Below, piece by piece: positions 4,390-4,577 of a stretch of 42,691 nucleotides of DNA. A program made the position numbers and the translations under genes. Position 1 is the first letter of the stretch. Each line of letters starts with the position of its first letter. Source of the stretch: Bdellovibrionales bacterium (GTDB lineage: Bacteria > Bdellovibrionota > Bdellovibrionia > Bdellovibrionales > UBA1609); assembly GCA_020628165.1 (NCBI GenBank), contig JAHDFM010000014.1, positions 40,977-83,667 on the forward strand. Reading direction: 5' to 3'. A model generated the notes under the pieces. That model saw only the letters and a list, made by a program, of their open reading frames with translations, was not told where the DNA came from and made no database searches.

Positions 4390-4577
4390 TCCCAAAAGGT
4401 GGTCCGTACCTTTTTGCGAAACGCTGCAAAAAAATGTTCATAACTTGGGGTCTAATGTTCACTGTAAATCCGAAGTTCGAACAGTCATTTTATGAACCTC
4501 AAACACAAACCTTTTGAAAATCTCAAGGCCAATTATATCGCAGTGTTTCGCAAAAAAGTGCGGACCACCTTTTGGGA
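4390..4577. repeat. Intergenic element bounded by 37-bp inverted repeats
   Basis: The left arm (4390-4426, TCCCAAAAGGTGGTCCGTAC then CTTTTTGCGAAACGCTG) and the right arm (4541-4577) are reverse complements at 34 of 37 positions. They enclose 114 nt that contain a further inverted pair, GTTCATAA at about 4435 and TTATGAAC at about 4491. The whole lies between the divergent glnB and trmL genes. No open reading frame is present inside. It could be a MITE-like non-autonomous mobile element, a structured RNA, or a cis-regulatory stem; the sequence alone does not decide. Confidence 0.75.

Follow-up and report, generated by a model that had tools for sequence, protein, structure and literature searches.

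The window analysed, a stretch of 42,691 nucleotides on contig C45 of a Bdellovibrionales draft genome (G000), includes the divergent genes glnB and trmL. glnB (4014-4352, minus strand), coding for the P-II protein (PF00543), lies next to glnA (2552-3967, minus strand), while trmL (4615-5076; PF00588, best NCBIfam match TIGR00185) occupies the plus strand. These matches agree with the preliminary description of this DNA, which had placed a pair of inverted repeats between the two genes. The 262 nt intergenic gap is mostly occupied by this pair (4390-4577), interpreted below as a REP doublet. Its left end is located 37 nt from the start of glnB and its right end 37 nt from the start of trmL.

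The arms (4390-4426 and 4541-4577) are identical at 34 of 37 positions when inverted and enclose 114 nt, the same values as counted previously; with relaxed matching they extend to 46 nt (87% match, 96 nt between them). No other inverted pair in the window comes anywhere near it in strength. That the match goes far beyond chance, as had been stated, was borne out: a 31-base arm pattern with up to three mismatches finds only the two arms in the window and nothing in dinucleotide shuffles, and none of 200 shuffles folds as stably as the element, either as RNA (z = -10.6) or as single-stranded DNA (z = -8.6). No open reading frame of at least 60 aa covers the element, again as described. The nested second dyad reported within the spacer (GTTCATAA...TTATGAAC) does exist but is weak.

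At the left arm lies a 36 bp REP unit on the plus strand (AAAAGGTGGTCCGTACCTTTTTGCGAAACGCTGCAA, 4394-4429), which starts with a 21 nt hairpin (4394-4414, AAAAGGTG-GTCCG-TACCTTTT) and ends with a conserved tail (TTGCGAAACRCTGC) pointing inward. The right unit (4538-4573, minus strand) is its inverted counterpart with the hairpin at 4553-4573. Outside the units, the TCCC extension of the left arm (4390-4393) pairs with GGGA of the right arm (4574-4577). The spacer between the units (4430-4537, 108 nt) has no detectable similarity to the spacers of other pairs of this kind in the genome. The left outer flank (4366-4389) is A/C-rich, a compositional feature common to the outer flanks of REP units in this genome, and the right one (4578-4614) is G/T-rich with G runs at 4588-4602. 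A small palindrome, GGTAAA-A-TTTACC, was noticed by eye between glnB and the left unit (4358-4370) and may possibly be an operator.

Pattern scans of 4300-4700 returned neither promoter nor terminator matches. Since only 37 nt are left outside each arm, the promoters of glnB and/or trmL are most likely located in the 4430-4537 spacer. The leaders of both mRNAs would then probably start in the spacer and each cross one REP hairpin.

A dispersed repeat family and its putative transposase

A search of the whole genome (3.19 Mb in 56 contigs) has shown that the arm, but not the spacer, recurs at many places. The family comprises 29 units of about 36 bp (AAAAGGTGGTCCGYACYTTTTTGCGAAACRCTGCGT) at 16 loci. 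With a 22-base core pattern, 28 sites were found at zero or one mismatch; a further real unit has three. The backwards control of this pattern gave a single match versus 30 for the true one. Inverted pairs are present at seven loci (C6, C19:23192, C19:103162, C29, C41, C50 and the window copy on C45), and a further one surrounds a transposase gene on C33. Direct tandems with a 35-bp period occupy five loci (C2, two on C4, C29, which has an inverted pair as well, and C54), and four units are single (C19:15748, C19:62790, C19:84288 and C33:62039). Several copies with target-site duplications had been proposed as the signature of a mobile element: the copies were found, but no duplication is visible beside 4390 or 4577.

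In all copies it is the arms that are conserved, while the spacers vary. With 134 nt separating the 22-mer cores, the spacer of the window pair exceeds that of every other pair in the genome (10-75 nt). The arms of the window pair belong to different subtypes (TACC and CACT). The right one matches the left unit of the C6 pair, on another contig, at 36/36 nt and resembles that copy more than it does its own partner; the nearest relative of the left arm, on C2, differs at 3 of 36 positions.

The hairpin of the unit has an 8-bp stem and a 5-nt loop and adjoins the conserved tail. Its inner six pairs are standard in all 28 distinct units, and changes at the two variable inner pairs are confined to G-C, G-T and A-T. 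When the whole 8-bp stem is counted, 92% of cells can pair, versus 42-75% when the partners are slid by one to three columns. Because almost all of the covariation among the distinct units is wobble, these figures support, rather than prove, selection on stem pairing.

None of the 15 loci away from the transposase gene has an open reading frame of at least 60 aa spanning the REP. The neighbouring reading frames are unidirectional at seven of these loci, convergent at five and divergent at three, and no inverted pair other than the window copy has a divergent setting. In the literature, too, most REPs sit between genes that are unidirectional or convergent (PMC3733652).

The 26 nt beyond the AAAAGGT end of the units show a strong A/C bias (C 34%, G 8%). 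An A+C fraction of at least 0.8 was found in 12 of 24 such flanks compared to 1.2% of random 26-mers, and the bias is symmetric, appearing on both sides of inverted pairs. A bias of this kind was not seen after stop codons in the window. One convergent intergenic region there (36719-36837) resembles these flanks on the plus strand (0.92 over 26 nt) and has no REP. We considered such flanks as a general property of RAYT/REP systems and rejected this idea, as they are absent beside the repeats flanking RAYT genes of relatives. The bias could reflect element ends or an insertion preference.

Searching with the Y1_Tnp profile (PF01797) revealed one intact gene in the genome (C33:49514-50140; 38.5 bits, cut-off 23). 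It lies between two inverted REP units (C33:49440-49470 and 50158-50186; E 4e-10). The best NCBIfam match of its product is the REP-associated tyrosine transposase, RAYT (REP_Tyr_transpos, NF047646; E 7.5e-16), with a score of 58.3 bits, which is under the curated cut-off of 80; the same model matches all 24 members of the clade at E below 1e-3. phmmer with the single protein found no useful match in PDB, while a profile of the 24 members has one significant match there, E. coli TnpA-REP (4ER8, E 2e-10). All 24 members retain the HUH histidines H61 and H63 and the tyrosine Y121. The site of the W-led pair of published RAYTs, located visually by its distance from the catalytic tyrosine, carries [FYWH] followed by an invariant G101. 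The C33 gene and its flanking units constitute a REPtron arrangement. Another Y1_Tnp match (L074, C53:9377-9613; E 6e-4) is below the cut-off, contains three in-frame TAG codons and no long open reading frame, and may at best be a decayed transposase remnant.

Origin of the doublet at glnB and trmL

Taken together, the 29-copy family, its inverted pairs and a RAYT gene with its own flanking pair make it very likely that 4390-4577 represents a doublet of inverted REP units (a REPIN, or two-unit BIME) from a genome-specific family associated with RAYT. The C33 enzyme is presumably the one that has spread the family, and we infer that the doublet reached the glnB/trmL region as one unit. In the mechanism that we propose, the doublet would become exposed as single-stranded DNA, e.g., on the lagging-strand template, where each unit would present its 8-bp hairpin beside the conserved single-stranded tail. 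The HUH/tyrosine transposase would then bind the doublet, cut it and rejoin it elsewhere, and the transfer would leave no target-site duplication. Such duplications are not expected for enzymes of the IS200/IS605-like RAYT type. Points that count against the doublet reading are the long spacer, the closer match of the right arm to a C6 unit, the NCBIfam score of the RAYT under its cut-off, the lack of a GT[AG]G foot (see below) and the predominance of wobble in the stem covariation, all in a genome that is a draft.

The divergent glnB and trmL pair is conserved in much of the family. The window repeat was found in none of the 20 glnB/trmL gaps of relatives (those of two congeners and of 18 further genomes of the family), so the arm conservation considered in the preliminary description is absent at this site and the insertion is specific to the lineage of the window. 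The gaps of the two congeners are 173 and 210 nt long versus 262 nt here. Removal of the whole 188-bp element would leave 74 nt, less than in any gap measured, while removal of the two units alone would leave about 180-190 nt, as in the congeners. Aligned to the congeners' gaps, the spacer shows no detectable similarity (z at most 1.2), though these gaps have perhaps diverged too far to decide. Because of these remainders, we treat as a serious alternative that two units of the same family inserted separately around an ancestral promoter region, the spacer being native glnB/trmL DNA. The unusual length of the spacer, the different subtypes of the arms, the identity of the right arm to a unit on C6 and the existence of single REPs all fit such a history. 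It is opposed by the lack of similarity to either congener gap, with the same reservation about divergence, and by the frequency of inverted pairs in the family; overall, we see it as quite possible but lean against it.

The REP doublet was also weighed against further explanations. Hairpins carrying A and T tracts are located some 40 nt away from each start codon and could be kept for their effect on glnB or trmL as a bidirectional terminator or an mRNA stability element; for REPs elsewhere, a role in termination or in stabilising mRNA has been hypothesised (PMC3733652). However, the terminator scan was empty, the element is not conserved in relatives, and a terminator in its position, in front of both genes, would do harm, so we find such a function unlikely. 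The structured RNA suggested in the preliminary description would agree with the very stable predicted fold, but it did not survive the comparison: no Rfam family matches, the spacers of different copies are unrelated, the site is empty in the 20 relatives, and dispersal through the genome contradicts a site-specific regulatory RNA, which makes this reading highly improbable. The same description named a MITE-type element. As a miniature mobile element it stands in substance, given the dispersed copies, the empty site in relatives and the transposase flanked by the repeat. A classical MITE, moved by a DDE transposase with target-site duplications, is scarcely credible: the arms do resemble terminal inverted repeats, but they are hairpins themselves, single units and direct tandems do not fit a MITE, the only transposase found flanked by arms is the HUH RAYT, and the window copy has no visible target duplication.

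RAYT/REP systems in the order and in other bacteria

Of the 141 genomes of the order, 92 contain RAYT homologues. Inverted REP-like repeats flank all 19 RAYT loci long enough to be tested (the one on C33 and 18 in relatives) and none of the 21 trmL loci used as controls. Across the RAYT gene, the top-scoring inverted repeat reaches 33-68 bits (median 49), versus 15-23 bits (median 18, maximum 23) at the controls. The repeats vary from genome to genome, yet AAAGGTRC and a CTTT-like end recur in most of them (AAAGGTACGGACACACTTTT, AAAAAGGTACGCCGTAACTTTTT). One core, AAGGTACGGACACACTTT, has 15-75 copies in several genomes, often as plus-then-minus pairs 35-110 bp apart, and its backwards controls gave zero matches in the genomes carrying these copies. 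A genome of the same genus (G001) has a further type, AGGTACCAAGTCCCTTTTTGCG, with eight copies, two of which flank its own RAYT gene. The window type itself gave only weak single matches in the relatives searched. Genomes thus tend to carry their own repeat beside their own RAYT gene, a pairing already described for REPs (PMC6006769).

G002, of the same genus, carries 40 copies of the AAGGTACGGACACACTTT core (at most one mismatch) and no Y1_Tnp/RAYT homologue in its 99%-complete draft, so it may either harbour an orphaned REP population or have its RAYT gene missing from the assembly. G028, of the same family, has nine RAYT homologues and at least two REP flavours, and several REP/RAYT systems seem to coexist in it.

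Canonical REPs have GT[AG]G at the hairpin foot, a motif read in E. coli partly by Q95 and neighbouring residues (PMC8266576, PMC6006769). This motif is absent from the G000 repeats, whose sole conserved foot is GTTTCGC, and the feet in relatives are CCC-, CGC- and CACC-like. Since GT[AG]G is missing from atypical classes in the literature as well (PMC6006769), its absence counts against the canonical subtype only and not against REP-like elements overall.

REPINs of Pseudomonas fluorescens SBW25 (PMC3116915) are similarly intergenic inverted doublets with variable spacers, tied to RAYT and accompanied by singles, but they number hundreds of doublets compared to 29 units here, differ in sequence, and have shorter spacers than our family, in which spacer length is not fixed. 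BIMEs of E. coli likewise mix inverted and tandem arrays and have two or more unit subtypes, while their sequence is unrelated and their copy number much higher. REPtrons of E. coli and others (PMC6006769, PMC8266576) share the gene for an HUH Y1 transposase flanked by an inverted dispersed repeat. In contrast to them, the system described here has no GT[AG]G foot but a conserved GTTTCGC tail beside the hairpin (assuming the binding strand that we infer), and [FYWH]-G at the site that in published subclasses holds a W-led pair, W-[EQ] in most of them. The atypical RAYT classes 2.6 and 3 (PMC6006769) are also flanked by structures without GT[AG]G, but their motifs are NH[LIV]H/YIH[QN]NP and NHVH/YV..EQ, whereas ours are NH[YF]H and Y-x-x-[RQL]-NP. 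As these classes lack the guide too but have other motifs, we call the G000 system a variant and not a new kind.

No report coupling RAYT or REP transposases with Bdellovibrio was found in the open literature searched, a negative result of little weight; the sole paper there in which "repetitive extragenic palindromic" occurs together with Bdellovibrio surveys Sinorhizobium sRNAs. Within that literature, the doublet with its RAYT is a known kind of element in an apparently undescribed and slightly unusual version. On balance, we slightly favour the view that the order has a distinct RAYT/REP lineage, with a core like AAAGGTRC...ACTTT lacking the GT[AG]G guide and with W-[EQ] replaced by [FYWH]-G. 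Such enzymes would use a different guide for recognition of the strand and cleavage site, and each species would have its own repeat matched to its own RAYT.

Overall, the peculiar inverted repeat in front of glnB, a gene central to nitrogen regulation, is best read as belonging to a family of mobile repeats for which a likely enzyme has been identified. Its position in a divergent promoter region makes it a case where a repeat could alter the expression of both glnB-glnA and trmL. RAYTs found across the order, paired with genome-specific repeats that lack the GT[AG]G guide, may offer a natural series for following how REP recognition changes in domesticated transposases.
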